Part shown: positions 3,053-57,696 of the stretch, in pieces
Numbering within the stretch: position 1 is the first letter of the stretch
Layout: the number at the start of each line of letters is the position of its first letter
Assembly (NCBI GenBank): GCA_032622095.1
Contig: CP136069.1
Location: forward strand, 2,391,462 to 2,455,461
Direction of reading: 5' to 3'
Length of the DNA stretch: 64,000 nt
Origin: Siphonodentalium dalli
Taxonomy: Eukaryota > Mollusca > Scaphopoda > Gadilida > Siphonodentaliidae
Notes under the pieces: model-generated
What the model saw: the letters and a program-made list of their open reading frames with translations, nothing else
The model's database searches: none
What the model was told of the DNA's origin: nothing
Position numbers and translations under genes: made by a program

Positions 3053-3126
3053 AGGGAGCCTCACACAGATGGAAGCATGCACTGCAGAGTGTCGTCTGCT
3101 CTAGTCGATGTGGGGCTCTCTATGGG
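3053..3126 (+). repeat. ~75-bp hairpin element, GAGCCCCACA type
   Basis: GGAGCCTCACACAGATGGAA...GCAGAGTGTCGTCTGCTC...ATGTGGGGCTCTC. Arms pair imperfectly. Same core as the copies at 36634 and 37709. Confidence 0.7.
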
Positions 3127-3388
3127 TTATTAAAGACAGTACGGTAGTCCTTTGTTTATGCAACCCTTGAAATTGACATTTTTATTCCATGGCATTGCTT
3201 TAGAATTTCATGAAACTCTACATGTTTATTGCCTTCTGTGGCTTTTTCTACAGGCATTGGTTTTTGCCATGGATAATTTCAAGGGATGGTTTGTGTCAAT
3301 TATTATAAGCAAAAAACTAGTGTATTGTCAATTGGAAACTAGTATCCAAGTCTGAATTTAGTCATTTTAGTGTGTCTGACAATTGCAG

Positions 3389-11089: not shown

Positions 11090-11738
11090 CTAGCTGGTGG
11101 ACCCGACTTCGTCCGGGCTGTTTCACCTCTGCTTTCTGGCGAAATGCGCGATTTGACCTTGAATTGACCATTTTGAAGATCAATGTCAGGTCGGGGTCAC
11201 GATTTGACCCGTCCAAAAGACTCCCTGGACAAAAGTAACCCTAGGTATCAAATTTCGTCGAAATCTGTCCGTCTTACCTGATTTGACCTTGAATTAACCT
11301 TTTTAAAGGTCACGGTCAGGTCGGGGTAACGATTTGACGCGTACAAAAGACTGCCTGTCCATAAGTAACTCTAGGTATTAAATTTCGTCGAAATCCGTCC
11401 GTTTTACCCGATTTGACCTTGAATTGACCTTTTTGAAGGTCAAGGTCAGGTCGGGGTAACGATTTGACCCATCCAAAAGACTGCCCGTCCAAAAGTAACT
11501 ATAGGTATCAAATTTCGTCGAAATCCGTCCCGTTTTACCCGATTTGACCTTGAATTGACATTTTTGAAGGTCAAGGTCAGGTCGGGGTCACGATTTGACC
11601 CGTCCAAAACCATCCCTGGAAAAAATTATCCCTAGGTATCAAATTTCGTCAAAATCCGTCAGGCAGTTTTCCCGGCCATAGCTAACAGACAAACAGACAG
11701 ACAGACAGACAAACAGAAGTCCCAAAATATATATTAGA
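11090..11738 (-). mobile_element. Helitron-like element (type ii) with ~130-bp core
   Basis: CTAG at 11090-11093, hairpin CCCGACTTCGTCCGGG, four core units (TTTGACCTTGAATT near 11153, 11283, 11413, 11543), an ACAGACAGACAGAC tract, and CCCAAAATATATATTAGA at the minus-strand 5' end. Complete by the TC...CTAG criterion. Confidence 0.7.
11150..11660. repeat. ~130-bp tandem core rich in AGGTCA half-sites
   Basis: Each unit has TTGACCTTGAATTGACC, GAAGGTCAAGGTCAGGTC, GGGGTCACGATTTGACCC and AAATTTCGTCGAAATCCGTC. The TCAAGGTCA / TGACCTTGA words match nuclear-receptor extended half-sites of the ERR/NR5A type. Confidence 0.8.
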
Positions 11739-15450: not shown

Positions 15451-15857
15451 GCTGAATAGGTCACTCTCACGGTGAGTCTCACCGGTTTTCTGTGATAAAC
15501 TTATAAAGTTACCCAGGTTCCTGAAATTGTGATAAAGTTACCCAGGTTGGAGAAGAATATGATAAAGTTACCCAGGTTAATAATAGTTCATGTTTAGCAA
15601 CAAATTATTGATTTTTGTGATCAAAATGACGAACTACAGTACTAATATGTCTGAATTTATGCTTGATAAGGGCTATTAATTACTTGCCAAAACTGAACAA
15701 TATTTCCTTCTGTCACTTTTAAATCGAGTTGATATTGTGAGATTTGCTTAACATGGGTAACTTTATCACAAATCTCACCAACCTGGGTAACTTTATCACA
15801 AAATTAGGAACCTGGGTAACTTTATCACAGAAAATCGGTGAGAGTGACCTATTCAGC
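15451..15857. mobile_element. 407-bp foldback element with tandem units in its arms
   Basis: Inverted arms of ~110-125 bp: GCTGAATAGGTCACTCTCAC at 15451 and GTGAGAGTGACCTATTCAGC ending 15857. Each arm holds three GATAAAGTTACCCAGG units (15534, 15571 region; reversed 15752-15830). Termini are shared with the 14.2 kb element that follows. No clear target duplication. Confidence 0.8.
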
Positions 15858-16043
15858 CATAATTCAAGGCCCACTTAATTTTAAAGGCCCACTATTTGTT
15901 TTATAGTGACTTGAGAGGGGTAACAGGGGGGTACATTCCCGGAATCCCAGGAAATAAATAACCCAATCCCAGTTCACAGGACAAAAATATGCCATTTCCC
16001 AGTTCACAGGAAATAAAATATTGTTGAGTAGGCCTATTAATAA
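15858..16043. other. spacer between the two foldback elements
   Basis: Holds two CCCAGTTCACAGGA direct repeats (15967, 15998). TTAATAA at 16037-16043 is the left target-site copy of the large element. Confidence 0.6.
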
Positions 16044-16223
16044 TGCTGAATAGGTCATTGTCGCATGGTTTCTGATAAAAAGACACCCAGGATCTCTTAA
16101 ACTGTCAAAAAGACACCCAGGATCTCGTAAACTGTCAAAAAGACACCCATGATCTCAAAGTCTCGCCACAGACATGACAATTGGAACTTATTCCCTATTC
16201 CTTATTTTCAAAAATGTCGCTTT

Positions 16224-19200
16224 CGACCGATTTGACGGCATGGGTGGGTGGCCCGCCCCAAATACCACCTAGAAACACCCCGACCCCCCACCCATCACCC
16301 CCGGGGGGTGCCACCCCGAGGGGGTGAAAATGGGGTATGGACCATTTTCGAGAACGGTAAGGATTTCGACCGATTTGACGGCATGGGTGGGTGGCTCGCC
16401 CCAAATACCACCTAGAAACACCCCGACCCCCACCCATCACCCCCAGGGGTGTCACCCCGAGGGGGTGAAAATGGGGTATGGACCATTTTCGAGAACGGTA
16501 AGGATTTCTACCGATTTGATGGCATGGGTGGTGGCCCGCCCCAAATACCACCTAGAAACACCCGACCCCCCACCCATCACCCCGGGGGGTGCCACCCCGA
16601 GGGGGTGAAAATGGGGTATGGACCATTTTCGAGAACGGTAAGGATTTCGACCGATTTGACGGCATGGGTGGGTGGCCCGCCCCAAATACCACCTAGAAAC
16701 ACCCCGACCACCCACCCATCACCCCGGGGGTGTCACCCCGAGGGGGTGAAAATGGGGTATGGACCATTTTCGAGAACGGTAAGGATTTCGACCGATTTGA
16801 CAGCATGGGTGGGTGGCCCGCACCAAATACCACCTAGAAACACCCCGACCACCACCCATCACCCCGGGGGGTGCCACCCCGAGGGGGTGAAAATGGGGTT
16901 TGGACCATTTTCGAGAACGGTAAGGATTTCGACCGATTTGACGGCATGGGTGGGTGGCCCGCCCCAAATACCACCTAGAAACACCCCGACCCCCCACCCA
17001 TCACCCCCGGGTGTGCCACCCCGAGGGGGTGAAAATGGGGTATGGACCATTTTCGAGAACGGTAAGGATTTCGACCGATTTGACGGCATGGGTGGGTGGC
17101 CCGCCCCAAATACCACCTAGAAACACCCCGACCCCTACCCATCACCCCCGGGGGGTGTCACCCGAGGGGGTGAAAATGGGGTATGGACCATTTTCGAGAA
17201 CGGTAAGGATTTCGACCGATTTGACGGCATGGGTGGGTGGCCCGCCCCAAATACCACCTAGAAACACCCCGACCCCCCACCCATCAACCCCGGGGGTGCC
17301 ACCCGAGGGGTGCCACCCCGAGGGGGTGAAAATGGGGTATGGACCATTTTCGAGAACGGTAAGGATTTCGACCGATTTGACGGCATGGGTGGGTGGCCCG
17401 CCCCAAATACCACATAGAAATACCCCGACCTCCACCCATCACCCCCGTGGGGTGTCACCCCGAGGGGGTGAAAATGGGGTATGGACCATTTTCGAGAACG
17501 GTAAGGATTTCGACCGATTTGACGGCATGCGTGTGTGGCCCGCCCCAAATACCACCTAGAAACACCCCGACCCCCACCCATCACCCCCGGGGGTGCCACC
17601 CCGAGGGGGGTGAAAATGGGGTTTGGACCATTTTCGAGAACGGTAAGGATTTCGACCGATTTGACGTCATGGGTGTGTGGCCCGCCCCAAATACCACCTA
17701 GAAACACCCCGACCCCACCATCACCCCCGGGGGGTGCCACTCCGAGGGGGTGAAAATTGGGTATGAACCATTTTCGAGTACGGTAAGGATTTCGACCGAT
17801 TTGACGGCATGGGTGGGTGGCCCGCCCCAAATACCACCTAAAAACACCCCGACCCCCCACCCATCACCCCCGGGGGGGTGTCACCCCGAGGGGGTGAAAA
17901 TGGGGTATGGACTATTTTCGAGAACGGTAAGGATTTCCACCGATTTGACGGCATGGGTGGGTGGCCCGCCCCAAATACCACCTAGAAACACCCCGACCCC
18001 CCACCCATCACCCCCGGGGGGTGCCACCCCGAGGGGGTGAAAATGGGGTATGCACCATTTTCGAGAACGGTAAGGATTTCGACCGATTTGACGGCATGGG
18101 TGGGTGGCCCGCCCAAATACCACCTAGAAACACCCCGAGCCCCCACCCATCACCCCCGGGGGGGTGTCACCCCGAGGGGGTGAAAATGGGGTATGGACCA
18201 TTTTCGAGAACGGTAAGGATTTCGACCGATTTGACGGCATGTGTGTGTGGCCCGCCCCAAATACCACATAGAAACACCCCGAACCCCACCCATCACCCCC
18301 GGGGGTGTCACCCCGAGGGGTGAAAATGGGGTATGGACCATTTTCGAGAACGGTAAGGATTTCGACCGATTTGATGGCATGGGTGGGTGGCCCGCCCCAA
18401 ATACCACCTAGAAACACCCCGACCCCCACCGATCACCCCCGGGGGGTGGCAACCCGAGGGAGTGAAAATGGGGTATGGACCATTTTCGAGAACGGTAAGG
18501 ATTTCGACCGATTTGACGGCATGAGCGGGTGGCCCGCCCCAAATACCACCTAGAAACACCCCGACCCCACCCATCACCCCCGGAGGGTGCCACCCCGAGG
18601 GGGTGAAAATGGGGTATGGACCATTTTCGAGAACGGTAAGGATTTCGACCGATTTGACGGCATGGGTGGGTGGCCCGCCCCAAATACCACATAGAAACAC
18701 CCCCACCCCCACCCATCACCCCCGGGGGTGCCACCCGAGGGGGTGAAAATGGGGTATGGACCATTTTCGAGAACGGTAAGAATTTCGACCGATTTGACGG
18801 CATGGGTGGGTGGCCCGCCCCAAATACCACCTAGAAACACCCCGACCCCCCACCGATCACCCCGGGGGGTGTCACCCCGAGGGGGTGAAAATGGGGTATG
18901 GACCATTTTCGAGAACGGTAAGGATTTCGACCGATTTGACGGCATGGGCGGTTGGCCCGCCCCAAATACCACCTAGAAACACCCCGACCCCCACCATCAC
19001 CCCCGGAGGGTGCCACCCCGAGGGGGTGAAAATGGGGTTTGGACCATTTTCGAGAACGGTAAGGATTTCGACCGATTTGACGGCATGGGCGGGTGGCCCG
19101 CCCCAAATACCACCTAGAAACACCCCGACCCCACCCATCACCCCCGGAGGGTGCCACCCCGAGGGGGTGAAAATGGGGTATGGACCATTTTCGAGAACGG

Positions 19201-22200
19201 TAAGGATTTCGACCGATTTGACGGCATGGGTGGGTGGCCCGCCCAAAATACCACATAGAAACACCCCCAACCCCACCCATCACCCCCGGGGGTGCCACCC
19301 CGAGGGGGTGAAAATGGGGTATGGACCATTTTCGAGAACGGTAAGAATTTCGACCGATTTGACGGCATGGGTGGGTGGCCCGCCCCAAATACCACCTAGA
19401 AACACCCCGACCCCCCACCGATCACCCCGGGGGGTGTCACCCCGAGGGGGTGAAAATGGGGTATGGACCATTTTCGAGAACGGTAAGGATTTCGACCGAT
19501 TTGACGGCATGGGCGGGTGGCCCGCCCAAAATACCGCCTAGAAACACCCCGACCCCCACCATCACCCCCGGAGGGTGCCACCCCGAGGGGGTGAAAATGG
19601 GGTTTGGACCATTTTCGAGAACGGTAAGGATTTCGACCGATTTGACGACATGGGTGGGTGGACCGCCCCAAATACCACCTAGAAACACCCCGAACCCCAC
19701 CCATCACCCCCAGGGGGTGTCACCCCGAGGGGTTGAAAATGGGGTATGGACCATTTTCGAGAACGGTAAGGATTTCGACCGATTTGACGGCATGGGTGGG
19801 TGGCCCCGCCCCAAATACCACCTAGAAACATCCGAACCCCACCCATCACCCCCGGGGGGTGTCACCCCGAGGGGGTGAAAATGGGGTATGGACCATTTTC
19901 GAGAACGGTAAGGATTTCGACCGATTCGACGGCATGGGTGGGTGGCCCACCCCAAATACCACCTAGAAACACCCCGACCCCCACCCATCACCCCCAGGGG
20001 GTGCCACCCCGAGGGGGTGAAAATGGGGTATGGACCATTTTCGAGAACGGTAAGGATTTCGACCGATTTGACGGCATGGGTGGGTGGCCCGCCCCAAATA
20101 CCACATAGAAACACCCCGACCCCCCACCCATCACCCCCGGGGGGTGCCACCCCGAGGGGTGAAAATGGGGTATGGACCATTTTCGAGAACGGTAAGAATT
20201 TCGACCGATTTGACGGCATGGGTGGGTGGCCCGCCCCAAATACCACATAGAAACACCCCCCACCCCCACCCATCACCCCCGGGGGTGCCACCCGAGGGGG
20301 TGAAAATGGGGTATGGACCATTTTCGAGAACGGTAAGAATTTCGACCGATTTGACGGCATGGGTGGGTGGCCCGCCCCAAATACCACCTAGAAACACCCC
20401 GACCCCCCACCGATCACCCCGGGGGGTGTCACCCCGAGGGGGTGAAAATGGGGTATGGACCATTTTCGAGAACGGTAAGGATTTCGACCGATTTGACGGC
20501 ATGGGCGGTTGGCCCGCCCCAAATACCACCTAGAAACACCCCGACCCCCACCATCACCCCCGGAGGGTGCCACCCCGAGGGGGTGAAAATGGGGTTTGGA
20601 CCATTTTCGAGAACGGTAAGGATTTCGACCGATTTGACGACATGGGTGGGTGGACCGCCCCAAATACCACCTAGGAACACCCCGAACCCCACCCATCACC
20701 CCCAGGAGGTGTCACCCCGAGGGGGTGAAAATGGGGTATGGACCATTTTCGAGAACGGTAAGGATTTCGACCGATTTGACGGCATGGGTGGGTGGCCCGC
20801 GCCAAATACCACCTAGAAACACCCGAACCCCACCCATCACCCCCGGGGGGTGTCACCCCGAGAGGGTGACAATGGGGTATGGACCATTTTCGAGAACGGT
20901 AAGGATTTCGACCGATTTGACGGCATGGGTGGGTGGCCCGCCCCAAATACCACATAGAAACACCCCGACCCCCACCCATCACCCCCGTGGGGTGTCACCC
21001 CGAGGGGGTGAAAATGGGGTATGGACCATTTTCGAGAACGGTAAGGATTTCGACCGATTCGACGGCATGGGTGGGTGGCCCACCCAAATACCACCTAGAA
21101 ACACCCCGACCCCCACCCATCACCCCAGGGGGTGCCACCCCGAGGGGGTGAAAATGGGGTATGGACCATTTTCGAGAACGGTAAGGATTTCGACCGATTT
21201 GACGGCATGGGTGGGTGGCCCGCCCCAAATACCACCTAGAAACACCCCGACCCCCCACCCATCACCCCCGGGGGTGCCACCCCCGAGGGGTGAAAATAGG
21301 GTATGGACCATTTTCGAGAACGGTAAGGATTTCGACCGATTTGACGGCATGGGTGGGTGGCCCGCCCCAAATACCACATAGAAACACCCCCACCCCACCC
21401 ATCACCCCCGGGGGTGCCACCCCGAGGGGGTGAAAATGGGGTATGGACCATTTTCGAGAACGGTAAGAATTTCGACCGATTTGACGGCATGGGTGGGTGG
21501 CCCGCCCCAAATACCACCTAGAAACACCCCGACCACCCACCGATCACCCCGGGGGTGTCACCCCGAGGGGGTGAAAATGGGGTATGGACCATTTTCGAGA
21601 ACGGTAAGGATTTCGACCGATTTGACGGCATGGGCGGGTGGCCCGCCCCAAATACCACCTAGAAACACCCCGACCCCCACCATCACCCCCGGAGGGTGCC
21701 ACCCCGAGGGGGTGAAAATGGGGTATGGACCATTTTCGAGAACGGTAAGGATTTCGACCGATTTGACGGCATGGGCGGGTGGCCCGCCCCAAATACCACC
21801 TAGAAACACCCCGACCCCACCCATCACCCCCGGAGGGTGCCACCCCCGAGGGGGTGAAAATGGGGTATGGACCATTTTCGAGGACGGTAAGGATTTCGAC
21901 CGATTTGACGGCATGGGTGGGTGGCCCGCCCCAAATACCACATAGAAACACCCCCACCCCACCCATCACCCCCGGGGGTGCCACCCCGAGGGGGTGAAAA
22001 TGGGGTATGGACCATTTTCGAGAACGGTAAGAATTTCGACCGATTTGACGGCATGGGTGGGTGGCCCGCCCCAAATACCACCTAGAAACACCCCGACCCC
22101 CCACCGATCACCCCGGGGGGTGTCACCCCGAGGGGGGTGAAAATGGGGTATGGACCATTTTCGAGAACGGTAAGGATTTCGACCGATTTGACGGCATGGG

Positions 22201-25200
22201 CGGGTGGCCCGCCCCAAATACCACCTAGAAACACCCCGACCCCCACCATCACCCCCGGAGGGTGCCACCCCGAGGGGGTGAAAATGGGGTTTGGACCATT
22301 TTCGAGAACGGTAAGGATTTCGACCGATTTGACGACATGGGTGGGTGGACCGCCCCAAATACCACCTAGAAACACCCCGAACCCCACCCATCACCCCCAG
22401 GGGGTGTCACCCCGAGGGGTTGAAAATGGGGTATGGACCATTTTCGAGAACGGTAAGGATTTCGACCGATTTGACGGCATGGGTGGGTGGCCCGCCCCAA
22501 ATACCAACTAGAAACACCCGAACCCCACCCATCACCCCCGGGGGGTGTCACCCCGAGGGGGTGAAAATGGGGTATGGACCATTTTCGAGAACGGTAAGGA
22601 TTTCGACCGATTCGACGGCATGGGTGGGTGGCCCACCCCAAATACCACCTAGAAACACCCCGACCCCCACCCATCACCCCCAGGGGGTGCCACCCCGAGG
22701 GGGTGAAAATGGGGTATGGACCATTTTCGAGAACGGTAAGGATTTCGACCGATTTGACGGCATGGGTGGGTGGCCCGCCCCAAATACCACCTAGAAACAC
22801 CCCGACCCCCCACCCATCACCCCCGGGGGGTGCCACCCCGAGGGGTGAAAATGGGGTATGGACCATTTTCGAGAACGGTAAGAATTTCGACCGATTTGAC
22901 GGCATGGGTGGGTGGCCCGCCCCAAATACCACATAGAAACACCCCCACCCCCACCCATCACCCCCGGGGGTGCCACCCCGAGGGGGTGAAAATGGGGTAT
23001 GGACCATTTTCGAGAACGGTAAGAATTTCGACCGATTTGACGGCATGGGTGGGTGGCCCGCCCCAAATACCACCTAGAAACACCCCGACCCCCCACCGAT
23101 CACCCCGGGGGGTGTCACCCCGAGGGGGTGAAAATGGGGTATGGACCATTTTCGAGAACGGTAAGGATTTCGACCGATTTGACGGCATGGGCGGGTGGCC
23201 CGCCCCAAATACCACCTAGAAACACCCCGACCCCACCATCACCCCCGGAGGGTGCCACCCCGAGGGGGTGAAAATGGGGTTTGGACCATTTTCGAGAACG
23301 GTAAGGATTTCGACCGATTTGACGACATGGGTGGGTGGACCGCCCCAAATACCACCTAGAAACACCCCGAACCCCACCATCACCCCCAGGGGGTGTCACC
23401 CCGAGGGGGTGAAAATGGGGTATGGACCATTTTCGAGAACGGTAAGGATTTCGACCGATTTGACGGCATGGGTGGGTGGCCCGCCCCAAATACCACCTAG
23501 AAACACCCGAACCCCACCCATCACCCCCGGGGGGTGTCACCCCGAGGGGGTGACAATGGGGTATGGACCATTTTCGAGAACGGTAAGGATTTCGACCGAT
23601 TTGACGGCATGGGTGGGTGGCCCGCCCCAAATACCACATAGAAACACCCCGACCCCCACCCATCACCCCCGTGGGGTGTCACCCCGAGGGGGTGAAAATG
23701 GGGTATGGACCATTTTCGAGAACGGTAAGGATTTCGACCGATTCGACGGCATGGGTGGGTGGCCCACCCAAATACCACCTAGAAACACCCCGACCCCCAC
23801 CCATCACCCCAGGGGGTGCCACCCCGAGGGGGTGAAAATGGGGTATGGACCATTTTCGAGAACGGTAAGGATTTCGACCGATTTGACGGCATGGGTGGGT
23901 GGCCCGCCCCAAATACCACCTAGAAACACCCCGACCCCCCACCCATCACCCCCGGGGGTGCCACCCCGAGGGGTGAAAATAGGGTATGGACCATTTTCGA
24001 GAACGGTAAGGATTTCGACCGATTTGACGGCATGGGTGGGTGGCCCGCCCCAAATACCACATAGAAACACCCCCACCCCACCCATCACCCCCGGGGGTGC
24101 CACCCCGAGGGGGTGAAAATGGGGTATGGACCATTTTCGAGAACGGTAAGAATTTCGACCGATTTGACGGCATGGGTGGGTGGCCCGCCCCAAATACCAC
24201 CTAGAAACACCCCGACCACCCACCGATCACCCCGGGGGTGTCACCCCGAGGGGGTGAAAATGGGGTATGGACCATTTTCGAGAACGGTAAGGATTTCGAC
24301 CGATTTGACGGCATGGGCGGGTGGCCCGCCCCAAATACCACCTAGAAACACCCCGACCCCCACCATCACCCCCGGAGGGTGCCACCCCGAGGGGGTGAAA
24401 ATGGGGTATGGACCATTTTCGAGAACGGTAAGGATTTCGACCGATTTGACGGCATGGGCGGGTGGCCCGCCCCAAATACCACCTAGAAACACCCCGACCC
24501 CACCCATCACCCCCGGAGGGTGCCACCCCGAGGGGGGTGAAAATGGGGTATGGACCATTTTCGAGGACGGTAAGGATTTCGACCGATTTGACGGCATGGG
24601 TGGGTGGCCCGCCCCAAATACCACATAGAAACACCCCCACCCCACCCATCACCCCCGGGGGTGCCACCCCGAGGGGGTGAAAATGGGGTATGGACCATTT
24701 TCGAGAACGGTAAGAATTTCGACCGATTTGACGGCATGGGTGGGTGGCCCGCCCCAAATACCACCTAGAAACACCCCGACCCCCCCACCGATCACCCCGG
24801 GGGGTGTCACCCCCGAGGGGGTGAAAATGGGGTATGGACCATTTTCGAGAACGGTAAGGATTTCGACCGATTTGACGGCATGGGCGGGTGGCCCGCCCCA
24901 AATACCACCTAGAAACACCCCGACCCCCACCATCACCCCCGGAGGGTGCCACCCCGAGGGGGTGAAAATGGGGTTTGGACCATTTTCGAGAACGGTAAGG
25001 ATTTCGACCGATTTGACGACATGGGTGGGTGGACCGCCCCAAATACCACCTAGAAACACCCCGAACCCCACCCATCACCCCCAGGGGGTGTCACCCCGAG
25101 GGGTTGAAAATGGGGTATGGACCATTTTCGAGAACGGTAAGGATTTCGACCGATTCGACGGCATGGGTGGGTGGCCCACCCCAAATACCACCTAGAAACA

Positions 25201-26345
25201 CCCGAACCCCACCCATCACCCCCGTGGGGTGTCACCTAGAGGGGGGTGAAAATGGGGTATGGACCATTTTCGAGAACGGTAAGGATTTCGACCGATTCGA
25301 CGGCATGGGTGGGTGGCCCACCCCAAATACCACCTAGAAACACCCGAACCCCACCCATCACCCCCGGGGGTGTCACCCCCGAGGGGGTGACAATGGGGTA
25401 TGGACCATTTTCGAGAACGGTAAGGATTTCGACCGATTTGACGGCATGGGTGGGTGGCCCGCCCCAAATACCACATAGAAACACCCCGACCGCCACCCAT
25501 CACCCCCGTGGGGTGTCACCCCGAGGGGGTGAAAATGGGGTATGGACCATTTTCGAGAACGGTAAGGATTTCGACCGATTCGACGGCATGGGTGGGTGGC
25601 CCACCCCAAATACCACCTAGAAACACCGCGACCCCCACCCATCACCCCCAGGGGTTGCCACCCCGAGGGGGTTAAAATGGGGTATGGACCATTTTCGAGA
25701 ACGGTAAGGATTTCGACCGATTTGACGGCATGGGTGGGTGGCCCGCCCCAAATACCACCTAGAAACACCCCGACCCCCCACCCATCACTCCCGGGGGGTG
25801 CCACCCCGAGGGGTGAAAATGGGGTATGGACCATTTTCGAGAACGGTAAGGATTTCGACCGATTTGACGGCATGGGTGGGTGGCCCGCCCCAAATACCAC
25901 CTAGAAACACCCCGACCCCCACCCATCACCCCAGGGGGGTGTCACCCCGAGGGGGTGAAATGGGGTATGGACCATTTTCGAGAACGGTAAGGATTTCGAC
26001 CGATTCGACGGCATGGGTGGATGGCCCGCCCCAAATACCACCTAGAAACACCCCGACCCCCACCCATCACCCCCGGGGGGTGCCACCCGAGGGGGTGAAA
26101 ATGGGGTTTGGACCATTTTCGAGAACGGTAAGGATTTCGACCGATTTGACGGCATGGGTGGGTGGCCCGCCCCAAATACCACCTGGAAACACCCCGATCC
26201 CCACCCATCACCCCCGGGGGGTGCCACCAACGACGGGGTGAAAATGTGGTATGGACCATTTTCGAGAACGGTAAGGATTTCGACCGATTTGACGGCATGG
26301 GTGGGTGGCCCGCCCCAAATACCACCTAGAAACACCACGACCCCC
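16224..26345 (+). repeat. 142-bp satellite, about 71 direct copies
   Basis: Unit: ATGGGGTATGGACCATTTTC, GAGAACGGTAAGGATTTCGA, CCGATTTGACGGCATGGGTG, GGTGGCCCGCCCCAAATACC, ACCTAGAAACACCCCGACCC, then a C/G-rich tail with two palindromes (CACCCCCGGGGGTG and CACCCCGAGGGGGTG). Unit length varies 140-143 bp, mostly in the C and G runs, so the frame changes from unit to unit. Confidence 0.95.
19420..24800 (+). repeat. higher-order repeat of ~2,684 bp (19 monomers)
   Basis: Rare variants recur at one offset: AAAATAGGG at 21293 and 23977 (2,684), CGAGGACGG near 21880 and 24563 (2,683), GGGTGACAATGGGG near 20865 and 23550, GGCCCACCCAAATACC near 21078 and 23762. Two adjacent higher-order units therefore cover about 19.4-24.8 kb. 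Confidence 0.8.
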
Positions 26346-26351
26346 CCCCCA

Positions 26352-28068
26352 CGTGTTATAATTGGGCGTGGCACTTTTTCAGTGCAGCGTGTGCTATAAG
26401 TGGGTGTGGCACTTTTTCAGTGCAACGTATGTTATAAGTGGGCGTGGCACTTTTTTATTTCAGCGTGTGTTATAACTGGGCGTGGCACTTTTTCAGTGCA
26501 GCGTGTGCTATAAGTGGGTGTGGCACTTTTTAAGTGCAACGTGTGTTATAAGTGGGTGTGGCACTTTTTAAGTGCAGCGTGTGCTATAAGTGGGTGTGGC
26601 ACTTTTTCAGTGCAACGTATGTTATAAGTGAGCGTGGCACTTTTTTTTATTTCAGCGTGTGTTATAAGTGGGCGTGGCACATTTTTAGTGCAGCGTGTGC
26701 TATAAGTGGGCGGGGCACTTTTTTAAGTGCAGCGTGTGTTATAAGTGGGCGTGGCACTTTTTAAGTGCAGCGTGTGTTATAAGTGGGCGTGGCACCTTTT
26801 TTATGCAGCGTGTGTTATAAGTGAGCGTGGCATTTTTTAAGTGCAGGGTGTGTTCTACGTGGGCGTGGCACTTTTTATGTGCAGTGTGTTATAAGTGGGC
26901 CTGGCACTTTTTTAATGCAGCGTGTGTTATAAGTGGGCGTGGCACTTTTTAGTGCAGCGTTTGTTATAAGTGGGCGTGGCACCTTTTCAATGCAGCGTGT
27001 GTTATAAGTGGGCGTGGTACTTTTTCAATGCAGCGTATGTTATAAGTGGGCGTGGCATTTTTTTAGTGCATAGTGTATTATAAGTGGGCGTGGCACTTTT
27101 TAGTGCAGTGTGTGCTATAAGTTGGCGTGGCACTTTTCAGTGCAGCGTGTGTTATAAGTGGGCGTGGTACTTTTTCAGTGCAGCGTATGTTATAAGTGGG
27201 CGTGGCATTTTGTCAGTGCATCGTGTGTTATAAGTGGGCGTGGCACCTTTTAAGTACAGCGTGTGTTATAAGTGGGCGTGGCACTTTTTAAATGCAGTGT
27301 GTGTTATAAGTGGGTGTGGCACTATTTCAGTGCAACGTATGTTATAAGTGGGCGTGGCACTTTTATTTCAGCGTGTGTTATAAGTGGGCGTGGCACTTCT
27401 TCAGTTCAGCGTGTGCTATAAGTGGGTGTGGCACCTTTTCAGTGCAACGTATGTTATATGTGGGCGTGGCACTTTTTTATTTCAGCGTGTGTTATAAGTG
27501 GGTGTGGCACTTTTTCAGTGCAACGTGTGCTATAAGTGGGCGTGGCATTTTTTAAGTGCAGTGTGTGTTATAAGTGGGCGTGGCACTTTTTAAGTGCAGC
27601 GTGTGTTATAAGTGGGCGTGGCACTTTTTCAGTGCAACGTATGTTATATGTGGGCGTGGCACTTTTTTATTTCAGCGTGTGTTATAAGTGAGCGTGGCAC
27701 TTTTTTTATTTCAGTGTGTGTTATAAGTGGGCGTGGCACTTTTTCAGTGCAGCGTGCGCTATAAGTGGGCGTGGCACCTTTTCAGTTCAGCGTGTGTTAT
27801 ATGTGGGCGTAGCACTTTTTAAATGCAGCGTGTGTTATAAGTGGGCGTGGCACTTTTTTGATGCAGCGTGTGTTATAAGTGGGCGTGACACTTTTTAGTG
27901 CAGCGTGTGTTATAAGTGGGCGTGGCATCTTTTCAATGCAGCGTGTGTTATAAGTGGGCAATGCACTTTTTTAATGCAGCGTATGTTATAAGTGGGCGTG
28001 GCATTTTTTCAGTGCAGCGTGTGTTATAAGTGGGCGTGGCATTTTTTCAGTGCAGCGTGTGTTATAAG
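26352..28068 (+). repeat. 39-bp satellite, about 43 direct copies
   Basis: Unit GTGTTATAAGTGGGCGTGGC then ACTTTTTCAGTGCAGC, 38-41 bp. Each has a GTGGGCGTGGC box and a small hairpin GCACTTTTTCAGTGC. Confidence 0.9.
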
Positions 28069-28073
28069 TGTGT
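28069..28073. other. centre of the large palindrome
   Basis: CGTGTGTTATAA on the left and TTATAACACACG on the right, separated by three bases, mark the strand switch between the direct and inverted 39-bp arrays. Confidence 0.85.
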
Positions 28074-28753
28074 TATAACACACGCTGAACTAAAAAAGTG
28101 CCTCGCCCACTTATAACACAAGCTGAACTGAAAAAGTGCCACGCCCACTTATAACACACGCGGCACTAAAAAAGTGCCATGCCCACTTATAACACACGCT
28201 GCACTACAAAAATGCCACGCCCGCTTATAACACACGCTGCTCTGAAAAAGTGCCACGCCCACTTATAACACACGCTGCACTGAAAAGTGCCACACCCACT
28301 TATAACACACGCTGCACTAAAAAAGTGCCACGCCCACTTATAACACACGCTGCGCTGAAAAAGTGTCACGCCCACTTTTAACACCCGCTGCACTTAAAAA
28401 GTGCCACGCCCACTTATAACACACGCTGCACTGAAAAAGTGCCACGCCCAATTATAACACACGATGCAATTAAAAAGTGCCACGCCCACTTATAACACAC
28501 GCTGCATTAAAAAAGTGCCACGCCAACGTATAACACACGCTGCACTAATAACACACGCCCACTTATAACACACGCTGGACTAAAAAAGTGTCACGCCCAT
28601 TGTAACACACGCTGCACTGAAAAAGTGCCACGCCCGCTTATAACACACGCCCACTTATAACACACGCTGGATTAAAAAGTGCCACGCCGACTTATGCACA
28701 CACTGCACGGAAAAAGTGCCACGCCCGCTTATAACACACGCTGCACTGAAAAA
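28074..28753 (-). repeat. 39-bp satellite, inverted, about 17 copies
   Basis: Same unit as 26352-28068 on the opposite strand (GTGCCACGCCCACTTATAAC, ACACGCTGCAC). More irregular than the left array, with shortened units near 28530-28740. Confidence 0.9.
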
Positions 28754-29900
28754 TCGGTCGAAATCCTTTCCGTTCTCGAAAATGGTCCATACCCCATTTT
28801 CACCCCCTCGGTGTGGCACCCCCCGGGTGATGGGTGGGGGTCGGGGTGTTTCTAGGTGGTATTTGGGCGGGCCACCCACCCATGCCGTCAAATCGGTCGA
28901 AATCCTTACCGTTCTCGAAAATGGTCCATACCCCATTTTCACCCCCCTCGGGGTGACAGCCCCCGGGGGTGATGGGTGGGGGGTTGGGGTGTTTCTAGGT
29001 GGTATTTGGGGCGGGCCACCCACCCATGCCGTCAAATCGGTCGAAATCCTTACCGTTCTCGAAAACGGTCCATACCCCATTTTCACCCCCTCGGGGTGGC
29101 ACCCCCCCCCCCGGGGGTGATGGGTGGGGGTCGGGGTGTTTCTAGGTGGTATTTGGGGCGGGCCACCCACCCATGCCGTCAAATCGGTCGAAATCCTTAC
29201 CGTTCTCGAAAATGGTCCATACCCCATTTTCACCCCCTCGTGGTGGCACCCCCCGGGGGTGATGGTGGGGGGGGTCGGGGTGTTTCTAGGTGGTATTTGG
29301 GGCGGGCCACCCACCCATGCCGTCAAATCTGTCGAAATCCTTACCGTTCTCGAAAATGGTCCATACCCCATTTTCACCCCCTCGGTGTGGCACACCCGGG
29401 GGTGGTGGGTGTGGGGTCGGGGTGTTTCTAGGTGGTATTTGGGGCGGGCCACCCACCCATGCCGTCAAATCGGTCGAAATCCTTACCGTTCTCGAAAACG
29501 GTCCATACCCCATTTTCACCCCCTCGGGGTGGCACCCCCGGGGGTGATGGGTGTGGGGTCGGGGTGTTTCTAGGTGGTATATGGGGCGGGCCACCCACCC
29601 ATGCCGTCAAATCGGTCGAAATCCTTACCGTTCTCGAAAACGGTCCATACCCCATTTTCACCCCCTCGGGGTGACACCCCCGGGGGTGATGGGTGGGGGG
29701 TCGGGGTGTTTCTAGGTGGTATTTGGGGCGGGCCACCCACCCATGCCGTCAAATCGGTCGAAATCCTTACCGTTCTCGAAAATGGTCCATACCCCATTTT
29801 CACCCCCTCGGGGTGACACCCCCGGGGGTGATGGGTGGGGGGTCGGGGTGTTTCTAGGTGGTATTTGGGGCGGGCCACCCACCCATGCCGTCAAATCGGT
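28754..29900 (-). repeat. 142-bp satellite, inverted, 8 copies
   Basis: Same monomer as 16224-26345 in reverse (GGTCGAAATCCTTACCGTTC, CCACCCACCCATGCCGTCAA). Eight copies against about 71 in the other arm. Confidence 0.95.
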
Positions 29901-29958
29901 CGAAAGCGACATTTTTGAAAATAAGGAATAGGGAATTAGTTCCAATTGTCATGTCTGT

Positions 29959-30145
29959 AGTCTCGCCAAACAACTGGGATTTTGTTTAGTCCTCTGCTAT
30001 AATTATTTGTTTGTGATCGGAGTGAAATATCAACGGAATTTAATTCGGCTTTGAGTCTGACTGACAGCGCAATTCCGCATCCTTGATAGTTGGACCAATA
30101 TTAATAGCAGACGACTAAACAAAATTCCCGTTGTTTGGTGAGACT
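29959..30145. repeat. 187-bp inner foldback in the right terminus
   Basis: Inverted ends AGTCTCGCCAAACAACTGGG and CCGTTGTTTGGTGAGACT, followed by TTTTGTTTAGTC on one side and GACTAAACAAAA on the other. The left terminus of the 14.2 kb element keeps only AGTCTCGCC at the matching place, so this segment is present in one arm only. Confidence 0.75.
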
Positions 30146-30237
30146 TTGAGATCCTGGGTGTCTTTTTGACAGTTTAAGAGATCCTGGGTGTCTTTTTGAC
30201 AGAAACCACGCGACAATGACCTATTCAGCATTAATAA

Positions 30238-30553
30238 TGAACAATATTCACAAATATGTATATATATTGTATTCTAATGCAATTTCATTATTTGCTGGTC
30301 GCTGGTCAATTATATGACATAAAAAGGGAATATAATGACGTAGCAAATTGGTGGACGAGACCACTCTGCACATTAATACATAATATATACACCAGGATAT
30401 ATACTCTATCTTGTTGTAGAAACAAACATACACAAGTGCATATAATTTATTATTATGAACGGGAAAATACGAGTCGACGAGTTCTCTTCAAAATTCCATG
30501 TGCACATATTTGTATTTTGGCTCAAATACTCTCATACAACTGTATATACAAGT
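30238..30553. other. unassigned AT-rich spacer
   Basis: Lies between the right target-site copy of the large element and the 53-bp satellite. No gene or repeat recognised. Confidence 0.5.
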
Positions 30554-32033
30554 GAATACATGCTGAATAGGGGTGATGGGTCCCGAGGTATAGCTCTGCC
30601 TATAGTGAATACATGCTGAATAGGGGTGATGGGTCCCGAGGTATAGCTCTGCCTATAGTGAATACATGCTGAATAGGGGTGATGGGTCCCGAGGTATAGC
30701 TCTGCCTATAGTGAATACATGCTGAATAGGGGTGATGGGTCCCGATGTATAGCTCTGCCTATAGTGAATACATGCTGAATAGGGGTGATGGGTCCCGATG
30801 TATAGCTCTGCCTATAGTGAATACATGCTGAATAGGGGTGATGGGTCCCGATGTATAGCTCTGCCTATAGTGAATACATGCTGAATAGGGGTGATGGGTC
30901 CCGATGTATAGCTCTGCCTATAGTGAATACATGCTGAATAGGGGTGATGGGTCCCGATGTATAGCTCTGCCTATAGTGAATACATGCTGAATAGGGGTGA
31001 TGGGTCCCGAGGTATAGCTCTGCCTATAGTGAATACATGCTGAATAGGGGTGATGGGTCCCGATGTATAGCTCTGCCTATAGTGAATACATGCTGAATAG
31101 GGGTGATGGGTCCCGAGGTATAGCTCTGCCTATAGTGAATACATGCTGAATAGGGTTGATGGGTCCCGATGTATAGCTCTGCCTATAGTGAATACATGCT
31201 GAATAGGGGTGATGGGTCCCGAGGTATAGCTCTGCCTATAGTGAATACATGCTGAATAGGGGTGATGGGTCCCGAGGTATAGCTCTGCCTATAGTGAATA
31301 CATGCTGAATAGGGGTGATGGGTCCCGATGTATAGCTCTGCCTATAGTGAATACATGCTGAATAGGGGTGATGGGTCCCGATGTATAGCTCTGCCTATAG
31401 TGAATACATGCTGAATAGGGGTGATGGGTCCCGATGTATAGCTCTGCCTATAGTGAATACATGCTGAATAGGGGTGATGGGTCCCGATGTATAGCTCTGC
31501 CTATAGTGAATACATGCTGAATAGGGGTGATGGGTCCCGAGGTATAGCTCTGCCTATAGTGAATACATGCTGAATAGGGTTGATGGGTCCCGAGGTATAG
31601 CTCTGCCTATAGTGAATACATGCTGAATAGGGGTGATGGGTCCCGATGTATAGCTCTGCCTATAGTGAATACATGCTGAATAGGGGTGATGGGTCCCGAT
31701 GTATAGCTCTGCCTATAGTGAATACATGCTGAATAGGGGTGATGGGTCCCGATGTATAGCTCTGCCTATAGTGAATACATGCTGAATAGGGGTGATGGGT
31801 CCCGATGTATAGCTCTGCCTATAGTGAATACATGCTGAATAGGGGTGATGGGTCCCGATGTATAGCTCTGCCTATAGTGAATACATGCTGAATAGGGGTG
31901 ATGGGTCCCGATGTATAGCTCTGCCTATAGTGAATACATGCTGAATAGGGGTGATGGGTCCCGATGTATAGCTCTGCCTATAGTGAATACATGCTGAATA
32001 GGGGTGATGGGTCCCGATGTATAGCTCTGCCTA
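30554..32033 (+). repeat. 53-bp satellite, 28 near-identical copies
   Basis: Unit GAATACATGCTGAATAGGGG, TGATGGGTCCCGATGTATAG, CTCTGCCTATAGT, exactly 53 bp. Variation is almost confined to GATG/GAGG and a few GGGTTGATG units. Each unit contains TGCTGAATAGG, the terminal sequence of the adjacent foldback element. Confidence 0.95.
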
Positions 32034-34149
32034 TATTTATAGAAGTTCGAACGTATCGATCGGGTGGGAGATAATTTCATATTTTATTTTCCCAAAAGTC
32101 ACAAAATCCTTGACTCTAAGGAAATTCAAGTAAAGGGCAGGGGGGACTGGAAGTAAAAGAGTTATCTGGAATTAGGACCTATCGGGCCGACCATGGTTCG
32201 GCCTGGTGGGAGAATTTTTTTTAATTCCGACTAAAAAGACGCGAAATCCTGAGACTTTTTAGGACATCCTAAAGACCATGAAAATTAGTGTCTTCTGTAT
32301 GTTGCTTGGTATTATTAATCTTATCAAAGACTGAAAGAGGAATATTTATGTCATGCACTCGATCAATTTTATGGAAGTAAAATATGTACTACGGTTAAGA
32401 CTTAACTGGTCTTGCAACAGGAGGAAATAACTGTTCTTACAATTGACAGATACGGCGAAATTCCGACTATACCAAGATGCAACATCCTAGCATCTGAGAC
32501 TTTGCATACAGGCCATTCCTGGCTCGAGGTCCTTGAGATTTGGAACATCGTATGGCCATCATGCAGTGTCTGTGTCCGTACCTCAAGTGGGGTTGGGCAC
32601 CGCCATATATCGGGAGTTCCATGGTTAACCCGGACAATTAACCGGGCCTACCCCACTGGCTAGGCGCCACTGGTGTATCGGCCCCGGCTAACACGGATAA
32701 TTTCAACAATAAATTTGAGCATTTACGCCGCCAAACATAAAAAGACGTAAGAACAAGACATTGAATGGACATCGAAGTATTGAAACCAGTTCAAACAATT
32801 CTGATCACAAATACTGAGATCAACTAGATGAAGAACGAGAGGCCGATCAATATCGGCAGATGTTTAACCCATACCTTGGCGATAGCAATTAGCTATAACT
32901 GATAATTGGTCAAAGATATTATCACAGTAATCCATATATCAGTACCTAACTTAAAATCAAAAGCTAAAATAATTTGTCTTAAGAAGGGGTTAAAGTATTT
33001 GGGGTGGGAGAGGAGTCGTTTTAAATCTCATAACTCTGTCCCTATTCACACAGGGACCTCTCACTGTGAGATCCAATGGTTTAGCCATTAATCAATTTGA
33101 CAGATAGGATAAACAATTATCCAGCCAGCAGGTTGTTTATCTTTACCTTCATACAACCACCCTAGAGCTCTGTAACATATGTCATCACTCAATTAATAAC
33201 AGATTTCGCTTGGAATGACATATATTAATTTAAAGGTACTCTCATATACTCTGGATATTGGATGTTCACATGGTAATTTATTGATATCATTATATTACAT
33301 GCAACTATTGCAATAAAATCTTCATATTTTCAAAACAGGACATCACACCTAATTAATGGTTTTAAATATTTGTGTGTGTTAAATTGGGCGAGGAGTTCAA
33401 TCTAAAAAAATAATTCAAAAATAATTTATTTTTTTCAAAACCAGAACTATAAACATAATCAATAGAAATATTTGAGTCATCAAATCGGATAGTACGGGGT
33501 TACTCTTAACTAAAATAATGAACTGATAAACACAAAATAGTCAACAAAAAGCATGTCATTGGATTTAGAAACCCATACAATAAGTCATTCTCAAGAATCC
33601 CAGCACCCTTCATATTATCCTGCAGCCCAAATTCAATTGAGGGAATTTCAAAATAAGACATTTCCTCTAATGATGAATATATTTATTGAAAAACTGACTG
33701 AACCTGGCTCAAAGTGAAAGCGATAATTTAATATATGTCTATCGGATAATATGTGTCTATGGAATGGGTTAATTTTAATCCCAAATCCATGTAAGTGAAA
33801 AGTGGATCACCATCAATCTGTTCACAGAATAGGAGAATGATCAAATGAAAAACACCAGAAGACCATATTAACCCCGGGTTAATCATTTCCAATGACATCA
33901 TATGATGGAACTAAGAGTCTTATAGAGTGTACATTAATTAATGCCATTGACCTGATTCAACAGAGGATTAATTAACTTAATATTGCACAGAAGACAGAAC
34001 TGGAATAAAGAGTCACAGTTTGACAGATGAGATAAACAGGTCTGTCAGGCACCAGTGTATTGGGTGTCCAATAGCTTTTAATTGTCTCATTCTAATAACA
34101 CAGTTCTGTGTGGATTCATTTTCTCTTCAAATTGCACAGTGCATCTGAG
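32034..34149. other. unassigned region with minor direct repeats
   Basis: No gene recognised. 32058-32120 and 32205-32270 are diverged copies (GGTGGGAGA... AAATCCT), the second next to the near-palindrome GGCCGACCATGGTTCGGCC, found again near 45080. The remainder is AT-rich without recognisable content. Confidence 0.5.
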
Positions 34150-46652: not shown

Positions 46653-47225
46653 CTAATGGCGCACCGCGCTAATGGCGCACTTTCTGTCGCTTTCGGCGCG
46701 GTGCGCCGAAAGCGCCGAAAGCGACAAAAAGTGCGCCGATCGGCGCACATTTTGTCGCTTTCGGCGCTTTCGGCGCTTTCGGCGCGCGCCGAAACAACGC
46801 TAATGGCGCACTTTTTGTCGCTTTCGGCGCGCGCGCCGAAAGCGCCGAAAGCGACAAAAAGTGCGCCGATCGGCGCACATTTTGTCGCTTTCGGCGCTTT
46901 CGGCGCTTTCGGCGCGCGCCGAAACAACGCTAATGGCGCACTTTTTGTCGCTTTCGGCGCGCGCGCCGAAAGCGCCGAAAGCGACAAAAAGTGCGCCGAT
47001 CGGCGCACATTTTGTCGCTTTCGGCGCTTTCGGCGCTTTCGGCGCTTTCGGCGCGCGCCGAAACAACGCTAATGGCGCACTTTTTGTCGCTTTCGGCGCG
47101 CGCGCCGAAAGCGCCGAAAGCGACAAAAAGTGCGCCGATCGGCGCACATTTTGTCGCTTTCGGCGCTTTCGGCGCGATGCGCCGAAAGCGACAAAAAGTG
47201 CGCCGAAAGCGCCATTAGCAAGTGG
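46653..47225. repeat. GCGCCGAAAGCG palindrome array, right, 130-bp period
   Basis: The perfect palindrome GTGCGCCGATCGGCGCAC occurs at 46731, 46861, 46991 and 47130. Units include CGAAACAACGCTAATGGCGC and TTTTTGTCGCTTTCGGCGC. Frames through it give Ala/Lys/Ser-rich peptides on both strands and are not genes. Confidence 0.9.
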
Positions 47226-55689: not shown

Positions 55690-57475
55690 TATCGAAATGG
55701 CCATGTTACGGCTATGCTATATACGACAATCGTATATACGGCCATGCTACGGCCATGTTACGGCCATCGTATATACGACCATGTTACGGCCATGTTATGG
55801 CCATCGTATATACGGCCATGTTACGACCATCGTATATTATACGACCATGTTACGGCCATGTTATGGCCATCGTATATACGACCATGTTACGACCATCGTA
55901 TATACGACCATATTACGGCCATGTTACGGCCATCGTATATACGGCCATGTTATGACCATGTTACGACCATCGTATACACGGCCATGTTGCGGCCATGTTA
56001 CGGCCATGTTACGGCCATCGTATATACGACCATGTTACGGCCATCGTATATACGGCCATGTTATGGCCATCGTATATACGACCATGTTACGGCCATGTTA
56101 CGACCATCGTATATATGGCCATGTTACGACCATCGTATATACGACCATGTTACGGCCATCGTATATACGGCCATGTTACGACCATGTTACGGCCATCGTA
56201 TGTACGGCCATGTTACGGCCATCGTATATCCGGCCATGTTACGACCATGTTACGACCATCGTACATACGACTATGTTACGGCCATCGTATATACGGCCAT
56301 CGTATATACGGCCATGTTACGGCCATCGTATATACGGCGATGTTGCGGCCATGTTATGGCCATCGTATATACGGCCATGTTACGGCCATGTTATGGCCAT
56401 CGTATATACGACCATGTTACGGCCATGTTACGACCATTGTATATACGGCCATGTTACGGCCATGTTACGGCCATCGTATATACGACCATGTTACGGCCAT
56501 GTTACGACCATCGTATATACGGCCACGTTACGACCATCGTATATACGGCCATGTTACGGCCATGTTATGGCCATCGTATATACGGCCATGTTACGGCCAT
56601 CGTATATACGACCATGTTACGGCCATGCTACGGCCATCGTATATACGTCCATGTTACAGCCATGTTACGGCCATCGTATATAAGGCCATGTTACGGCCAT
56701 GTTACGACCATCGTATATACGGCCATGTTACGGCCATCGTATATACGGCCATGTTACGGCCGTGTTACGGCCATCGTATATACGACCATGTTACGGCCAT
56801 GTTACGGCCATCGTATATACGGCCATGTTACGGCCATCGTATATACGGCCATGTTACGGCCATCGTATATACGGCCATGTTACGACCATGTTACGGCAAC
56901 CGTATATACGACCATGTTACGGCCATCGGATATACGACCATCGTTTATACGACCATGTTACGGCCATGGTACGACCATGTTACGGCCATGTTACGGCCAT
57001 GTTACGACCATGTTACGGCCATCGTATATGCGGCCATGTTACGGCCATGGTACGACCATGTTACGGCCATGTTACGACCATGTTGCGGCCATCGTATATA
57101 CGGCCATGTTACGGCCATGTTACGGCCATCGTATATACGGCCATGTTACGACCATATTACAATCATCGTATATACGGCCATGTTACGGCCATCGTGTATA
57201 CGGCCATGTTAAGACCATGTTACGGCCATCGTATATACGACCATGTTACGGCCATCGTATATACGACCATGTTACGACCATCGTATATACGACCATGTTA
57301 CGACCATGTTACGGCCATCGTATATACGGCCATGTTACGGCCATCGTATATACGGCCATGTTACGGCCATGTTACGGCAATCGTATATACGGCCATGTTG
57401 CGGCCATGTTACGGCCATCGTATATACGGCCATGTCACGGCCATCGTATATACGACAATATTGCGGCCATGTTAC
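55690..57475 (+). repeat. irregular TACGGCCATG / CGTATATACGGCC satellite
   Basis: Mix of 11-bp (CATGTTACGGC) and 15-bp (CATCGTATATACGGC) modules with ACGACC variants. A 637-codon open frame (55591-57504) and others overlap in all plus frames because no module order creates stops; not a gene. Confidence 0.92.
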
Positions 57476-57696
57476 GAATGGAATTCAACTCAGATCAAGC
57501 TTGAAAATCAGTTCCGATTTCCGCCCATGTCGGAATTTGAACCCCACAATTATTATCAGCCTTGATTTGTTGTTTGTTTCTAGAGAGTTTTTATTTAATA
57601 ACATTACCATGTGTTATATCCCAGTTGCTATTCAATACAATTTGTGCGTTTTTATTTGTGCTCAAGTCTTGAAATAGTGAGCCTGTCATTTTCAGA

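Follow-up and report, generated by a model that had tools for sequence, protein, structure and literature searches.

The window, a stretch of 64,000 nucleotides from Siphonodentalium dalli, carries four satellite arrays in the order A-B-B'-A' at positions 16044..30230, where primes denote inverted arrays. This mirror order is seen directly in the sequence, and a first-pass annotation of the same DNA had placed it correctly; the unit counts given there (71, 43, 17 and 8) come close to our recount (Table 1). The annotation also enclosed the arrays in a single pair of termini of about 180 bp, and this part did not stand: the outer 124 bp or so belong to a separate MITE, and the ends of the satellite element lie further in. 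The 14-kb mirror stretch is two nested elements, a MITE of about 0.4 kb that hosts a satellite foldback element. All genome searches covered the 2.23-Gb genome, in nine contigs, that contains the window.

Table 1. Features of the two nested elements (positions within the window)
Feature	Position	Strand	Basis
MITE target duplication ATTAATAAT, left copy	16036..16044	.	Sequence match
Outer MITE, left part, terminus GCTGAATAGGTCATTG with 30-bp subrepeats	16045..16167	+	40 loci scored for terminus; L003-L008
Inner target duplication AGTCTCGCC, left copy	16159..16167	.	L003-L008 carry uninterrupted site
Inner satellite foldback element, 13,791 bp	16168..29958	.	Ends, duplication, empty site, family
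Left terminal inverted repeat ACAGACATGACAATTGGAACTTATTCCC...	16168..16221	+	20-mer: 565 matches against 15 for reversed control
A array, 142-bp unit, 71 full units and a part	16221..26349	+	Unit count; 30-base pattern with 9113 genome matches
A sub-block, 19 units (2.7 kb) repeated ~2.4 times, 98-100% identity	18651..25151	+	Self-comparison
B array, 38-bp unit, 45 units	26353..28070	+	Unit count
B/B' dyad, 31 bp, short palindrome at centre	28055..28085	.	15 genome places, reversed control 0
B' array, 18 units (one of 17 bp)	28073..28750	-	Unit count
B'/A' junction, 25 bp	28741..28765	.	14 genome places, reversed control 0
A' array, 8 units	28751..29905	-	Unit count
Right terminal inverted repeat	29906..29958	-	Sequence comparison
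Inner target duplication AGTCTCGCC, right copy	29959..29967	.	Sequence match
Outer MITE remainder (centre and right terminus)	29968..30229	.	L003-L008 comparison
MITE target duplication ATTAATAAT, right copy	30230..30238	.	Sequence match

Satellite arrays and the mirrored B core

The 30-base pattern taken from the A unit matches the genome 4580 times in forward and 4533 times in reverse orientation. In the window, arm length has changed through repetition of a 19-unit block, whose copies take up units 17-62 of the A array; no signal of a comparable multi-unit block was found in the 40 A units of a segmental duplicate of the locus, described below. Unit order in the window's B array does not mirror that in B' (p 0.91, and p 0.83 in a second comparison), and mirroring between A and A' is weak (p 0.034), which speaks against arm copying as an origin that the sequence would still show; as a proof of arm copying, unit-order symmetry is unsupported for the window. 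At a second locus with B and B' arrays, L092, mirroring of unit order is not significant overall (p 0.16), and the outermost four units alone agree closely (0.94-1.0), an agreement noticed post hoc. Comparisons between the two loci gave p 0.07 for the left arm of L092 and the right arm of the window, p 0.20 for the two right arms, p 0.99 for the two left arms, and p 0.022 for the window's left arm and the right arm of L092, all unit-order tests being blurred by short pieces of odd length.

The B/B' dyad (found with 0 to 2 mismatches) and the B'/A' junction lie within 4 kb of each other at seven loci, the window counted, on C3, C4, C5, C6 and C9. L092 (C4) runs A-B-B'-A'-right end, its left end falling outside the stretch read; it has the window's dyad, and its A/B junction is the mirror image of its B'/A' junction. 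L094 (C5) and L095 (C3) share the junction and have similar first B variants. Since dyad and junction recur at many loci, the two-satellite element has been copied as a unit to several of them, and the earlier proposal of a transposed foldback unit whose two satellites belong together is borne out.

The locus at C9:805826 is an inverted, diverged segmental duplicate on the same chromosome, in which C9 ~790-807 kb corresponds to window ~15.3-40.1 kb, pieces of the right flank are 92-95% identical, and half of the foldback is kept. Still present in it are 40 A units and some 31 B units in one block, together with the left terminus, the B/B' dyad and the A/B junction; most of B', the whole of A' and the right end have been lost. 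The left A/B junction of the window is unlike the right one. A pattern made from this left junction matched the segmental duplicate alone; the window's own copy, which has a longer run of C, escaped it, and other copies may have escaped it as well. As the left junction differs from the right one and was otherwise found in the duplicate alone, the left arm of the window was probably rearranged before the segmental duplication.

The B satellite has 11,070 genome matches, and its arrays also occur outside foldback elements. Among the 100 B matches listed, all on C1, there are three blocks with spacings of several kb and above; B occurs in long-period arrays at C1:729654-918302 and C1:228630061-228658328, with spacings near 11,175 and 7,011 bp. 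B may have arisen inside the foldback, in which case the free arrays would be escapees, a derivation that we rate at somewhat below an even chance. The tie of B/B' dyads to A junctions at seven loci speaks for it, as does the report that Tetris repeats have seeded satellite arrays (PMC4079207); against it, B was not found in the 20 family members read (all of 7.1 kb or less), and the C1 block at 0.73-0.92 Mb has no exact A match nearby, the first exact A on C1 lying at 16.3 Mb.

A genome-wide family of foldback elements

The 20-base end of the inner element matches the genome 270 times in forward and 295 times in reverse orientation with up to two mismatches, as opposed to 8 and 7 matches for the reversed control; half of the 565 ends gives an estimated family size of about 280 copies. 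The 100 exact termini listed lie between the start of the listing on C1 and C3:104 Mb; 68 of them can be joined into 34 facing +/- pairs, with distances from 644 bp up to 27,408 bp and a median of 3.4 kb, seven of the 34 exceeding 10 kb. Termini were paired by hand, and other insertions may sit within a pair. Twenty of the 34 paired copies were read, each of 7.1 kb or less; the large-copy interiors read are those of the window and, in part, of L092.

The order end-A-A'-end, with A forward and then inverted, was found in all 20 complete copies read, which had been selected by their inner ends; small copies with few satellite units, for which the first-pass annotation had suggested a search, do exist. 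Exact target duplications of 8-10 bp flank 14 of the 20 when a one-base shift of frame is allowed. In a fixed frame, 9/9 positions match in ten copies, and a match of at least 8/9 occurs in two of 380 mixed pairs. A clear duplication is absent from six copies (L071, L074, L077, L083, L086 and L087). At L074 (C1:90349301-90350880), scored as having no duplication, the target repeat AGGTGGCAG lies about six extra bases from the right end. L080 and L081 have common flanks, as have L086 and L087, and each pair represents duplicates. The arms are at least twofold unequal in 11 of the 20 copies. The inner element belongs to a large mobile family whose copies consist almost entirely of tandem repeats, and it has the features of the foldback class, namely tandem repeats in long inverted arms (the 20 copies and the window) and target-site duplication (14 of the 20 copies, with an empty site for the window).

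A meets A' with little or no intervening sequence in 14 of the 20 copies. L078, L082 and L090 have genuine mirror centres at the A unit's own hairpin or palindrome, in GAAAATGGGGTATGGACCATTTTC. In the ten remaining A/A' copies, of which L080 and L081 are one case, the phases differ between the two sides, which fits the outcome of a deletion. Near the centre of L083 (C1:244375147-244381789, ~3090-3300) the A unit is inverted more than once.

Inner repeats of 84 bp are present in six copies (L072, L076, L077, L085, L086 and L087). They stand in both orientations solely in L072, where they flank an AT-rich loop; L077 keeps the left-hand orientation together with the start of the loop, and the other four copies have the right-hand orientation. 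Such one-sided cores fit, but do not prove, deletion from a mirrored parent. One strand of the 84-bp repeats reads as a series of C2H2 zinc-finger units, such as TGDRPYECDVYQKEFSYIWSLTMHKRTN, and the L077 frame matches Pfam zf-H2C2_2 with an E value of 1.1e-20. The second cysteine is mostly replaced by tyrosine, the first often by arginine and the last histidine mostly by asparagine, which leaves few of the usual zinc ligands in place. The junction between A and the zinc-finger repeats occurs at 31 or more genome places, a lower bound because of G runs. Part of the AT-rich loop is dispersed (40 loci scored of 579 candidates, 19 of those scored matching along 357 or more of 361 bases). At C9:134688861-134697729 the loop recurs five times at a spacing of 2.0-2.4 kb, which suggests a tandem array of the element core.

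Two unrelated satellites mirrored by chance, or an inverted misjoin in the assembly, could also produce the order seen in the window, where the arms are unequal in length and unit order is not symmetrical, and arrays are difficult to assemble. The A...A' structure at 20 loci, 14 of them with duplications, the recurrence of one B/B' dyad at 15 places, and the left terminus, A/B junction and dyad shared with the diverged duplicate (C9:0.8 Mb) make both very improbable.

Insertion into a MITE

The inner element starts with ACAGACATGACAATTGG and finishes with its inverse; its inverted ends (ACAGACATGAC...) measure 53/54 bp, and the 9-bp sequence AGTCTCGCC stands at both sides. Removal of 16168-29958 together with one AGTCTCGCC leaves a MITE of 389 bp that is 95% identical to L003 over 372 bp, and AGTCTCGCCAAA is uninterrupted in all six MITE loci viewed (L003-L008, among them the duplicate pair L006 and L007). 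The inner element is an exact insertion into a MITE with an empty site, and the boundaries drawn in the first-pass annotation are therefore off by one element. An origin of the A unit from the element end, as proposed for Tetris, is unsupported, the longest stretch shared by the 54-bp end and the A unit being at most 7 bp.

The outer termini, GCTGAATAGG... with ATTAATAAT repeats, belong to the ~0.4-kb MITE, which served as the target. A search with the 180-bp terminus gave 68 matches at 40 loci scored from 2231 candidates, that is, at least 40 loci: the window, its segmental duplicate and 38 others. At these 38 the matches are confined to bases 1-125, and in 26 of them facing matches lie about 0.3 kb apart, a distance into which the arrays would not fit; no A unit was found in the 3 kb of each of the six MITE loci read (L003-L008). 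These observations identify the outer ends as MITE ends. Among the 40 scored loci, the whole 180-bp terminus has one further place besides the window, C9:805826-806005 (98%), in the segmental duplicate, and no independent locus pairs the 16044-16223 terminus with the 142-bp unit, which was the refutation test put forward in the first-pass annotation. The outer direct repeats described there are genuine, although longer than the 7-bp TTAATAA: the full match is the 9-bp ATTAATAAT, and L003 likewise has a 9-bp duplication, CCAAGTTAT.

A single element with TGCTGAATAGG termini as its ends and TTAATAA as its target duplication, the original reading of the locus, would agree with outer ends that are inverted and both flanked by ATTAATAAT. 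It is extremely unlikely in view of the recurrence of the outer terminus at 38 or more other loci, and the inner ends (found on all 20 complete copies, which were selected by them), the 9-bp duplication and the empty site set the boundary inside the outer termini. As ends of the satellite element, the outer termini are refuted by the empty site.

A second MITE-like sequence at 15503-15856 bears subrepeats of ~30 bp of the AACCTGGGTAACTTTATCAC type, and its end, GACCTATTCAGC, has GCTGAATAGGTCA in common with the outer MITE. On the other side of the nested elements, at 30551-32035, a 53-bp unit that includes GCTGAATAGGG is repeated 28 times at 99% identity; in the segmental duplicate, the array adjoining the element differs from this one in unit arrangement.

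Mechanism and relation to known elements

We consider it highly probable that a MITE was the target of a non-autonomous foldback element with 54-bp ends and a 9-bp duplication, moved in trans, with arms that grew and centres that were rebuilt. A transposase supplied in trans would recognise the short ends and carry along any sequence enclosed by them, so that the unit moves complete. In the copies read no transposase was found, and the element is most likely non-autonomous. Target duplications of 9 bp fit Mutator-like enzymes, and the duplication found here falls within the range of the Mutator superfamily (9 bp; 8-10). On this basis a Mutator-like enzyme would be our best guess, held with about even confidence. 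MULE domains are common in the genome (150 scored matches of 813 candidates); 46 of the 150 lie within the region of the listed termini (C1, C2, and C3 below 105 Mb), the nearest at 31.9 kb from a terminus, most termini being outside those listed. The duplication does not agree with the 7 bp of the P superfamily, to which Galileo belongs. Helitron-type elements are not known to have terminal inverted repeats or target duplications, nor are the two together a known mark of oyster Helentrons; both are present here. A Helentron- or Helitron-type carrier, with satellite arrays in mid-element as in oyster Helentrons (PMC7492417), can hardly be correct, given 9-bp target duplications and terminal inverted repeats that extend as far as the outermost base.

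In the scheme that we prefer, the insertion of a foldback moved in trans, arm lengths may change independently by unequal exchange or slippage of multi-unit blocks. Centres may be rebuilt in repair, either by copying that turns back at a short palindrome or hairpin or by a joining of arms with deletion, and A/A' centres would then differ widely in phase. The 38-bp B satellite and a fragment of a zinc-finger gene would be foreign inputs that were turned into inner arrays and inherited by later copies. B is mirrored, and the zinc-finger repeats are mirrored in L072, which retains both sides; for mirrored cores the best explanation is repair in which copying folds back at palindromes. The family may even act as a capture-and-mirror machine, in which sequences entering the core are copied to both arms, expanded to mirrored satellite arrays and transposed together. 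We offer this extension tentatively and lean against it, as zinc-finger repeats are mirrored in just one of the six copies read.

Inverted arms of short tandem repeats are known from the FB elements of Drosophila and the TU elements of sea urchins. The inner element represents a new family within the known foldback class, to which Tetris, Tm1 and Galileo belong, and is an extreme variant of that class, Tetris being compared by description; it does not constitute a new class. Because Tetris, Tm1, Galileo and the reviewed array carriers are published, the kind is already known, and the undescribed element class suggested in the first-pass annotation falls away with Tetris, which is described with satellite-like arrays in foldback arms (PMC4079207). 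Tetris of Drosophila virilis is a non-autonomous foldback with ~220-bp tandem repeats inside inverted ends and 8-10-bp duplications; arrays hold up to 66 repeats, fibre-FISH shows long arrays between both outer end domains, and an autonomous source is reported as not found (PMC4079207). The likeness lies in foldback form, repeats in the ends and 8-10-bp duplications, and is one of description. Three structurally complete Tetris copies were sequenced, with ends of at most 1,735 bp, the long arrays coming from contigs and FISH (PMC4079207), whereas here complete copies with duplications are sequenced, arms reach about 10 kb (in the window), and there are extra core repeats unrelated to A.

Tm1, a Mutator/Foldback family of root-knot nematodes, ties such elements to Mutator, with which the 9-bp duplication fits; unlike the inner element, it has ~14-bp units and a known transposase-encoding member (PMC3169594). 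Galileo has long, internally repeated ends and chimeric copies, and its arms grow via tandem repeats and via inner sequence recruited as inverted duplications (PMC3573991). The inner element resembles it in its internally repeated long ends and in arms lengthened by repeats, in contrast to which Galileo belongs to the P superfamily, makes 7-bp duplications and, in D. mojavensis, has ends of at most ~1.3 kb with two or three repeat copies (PMC3573991). The oyster Helentron Cg_HINE carries satellite-like arrays, at times two kinds consecutively; it is like the inner element as a mobile carrier of satellite arrays and unlike it as a rolling-circle element of the Helentron superfamily (PMC7492417). 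According to a review, a single element may hold arrays of differing directions and types, there are oyster elements with several array types, and a MITE is thought to have captured a tandem repeat (PMC12628747).

What appears new, as far as we have seen, is that complete copies with duplications and with satellite arms on the kilobase scale have been sequenced, that a core repeat derives from a zinc finger, and that a B core is mirrored and passed on as one unit; nothing on such a case was found in a search of mostly open-licence literature. Satellite jumps between chromosomes have so far mostly been inferred from remnants. The complete copies described here, of graded size and with target duplications, inherited internal junctions and, in one case, an exact empty site, show that arrays of satellite DNA are moved as part of a DNA transposon. 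A route from coding sequence to satellite is suggested by the zinc-finger core, and capture and mirroring, if true, would lead directly from a gene exon or a single satellite to satellite DNA that is mobile and reaches up to tens of kb. With an estimated ~280 copies, it would be possible to date and test how arms grow, how centres form and how repeats escape into free arrays.

The window also contains GC-rich palindromic tandem repeats of the CGCTTTCGG type at 46667-47175 and a 1.7-kb array of TACGGCCATGT-type units at 55737-57476.
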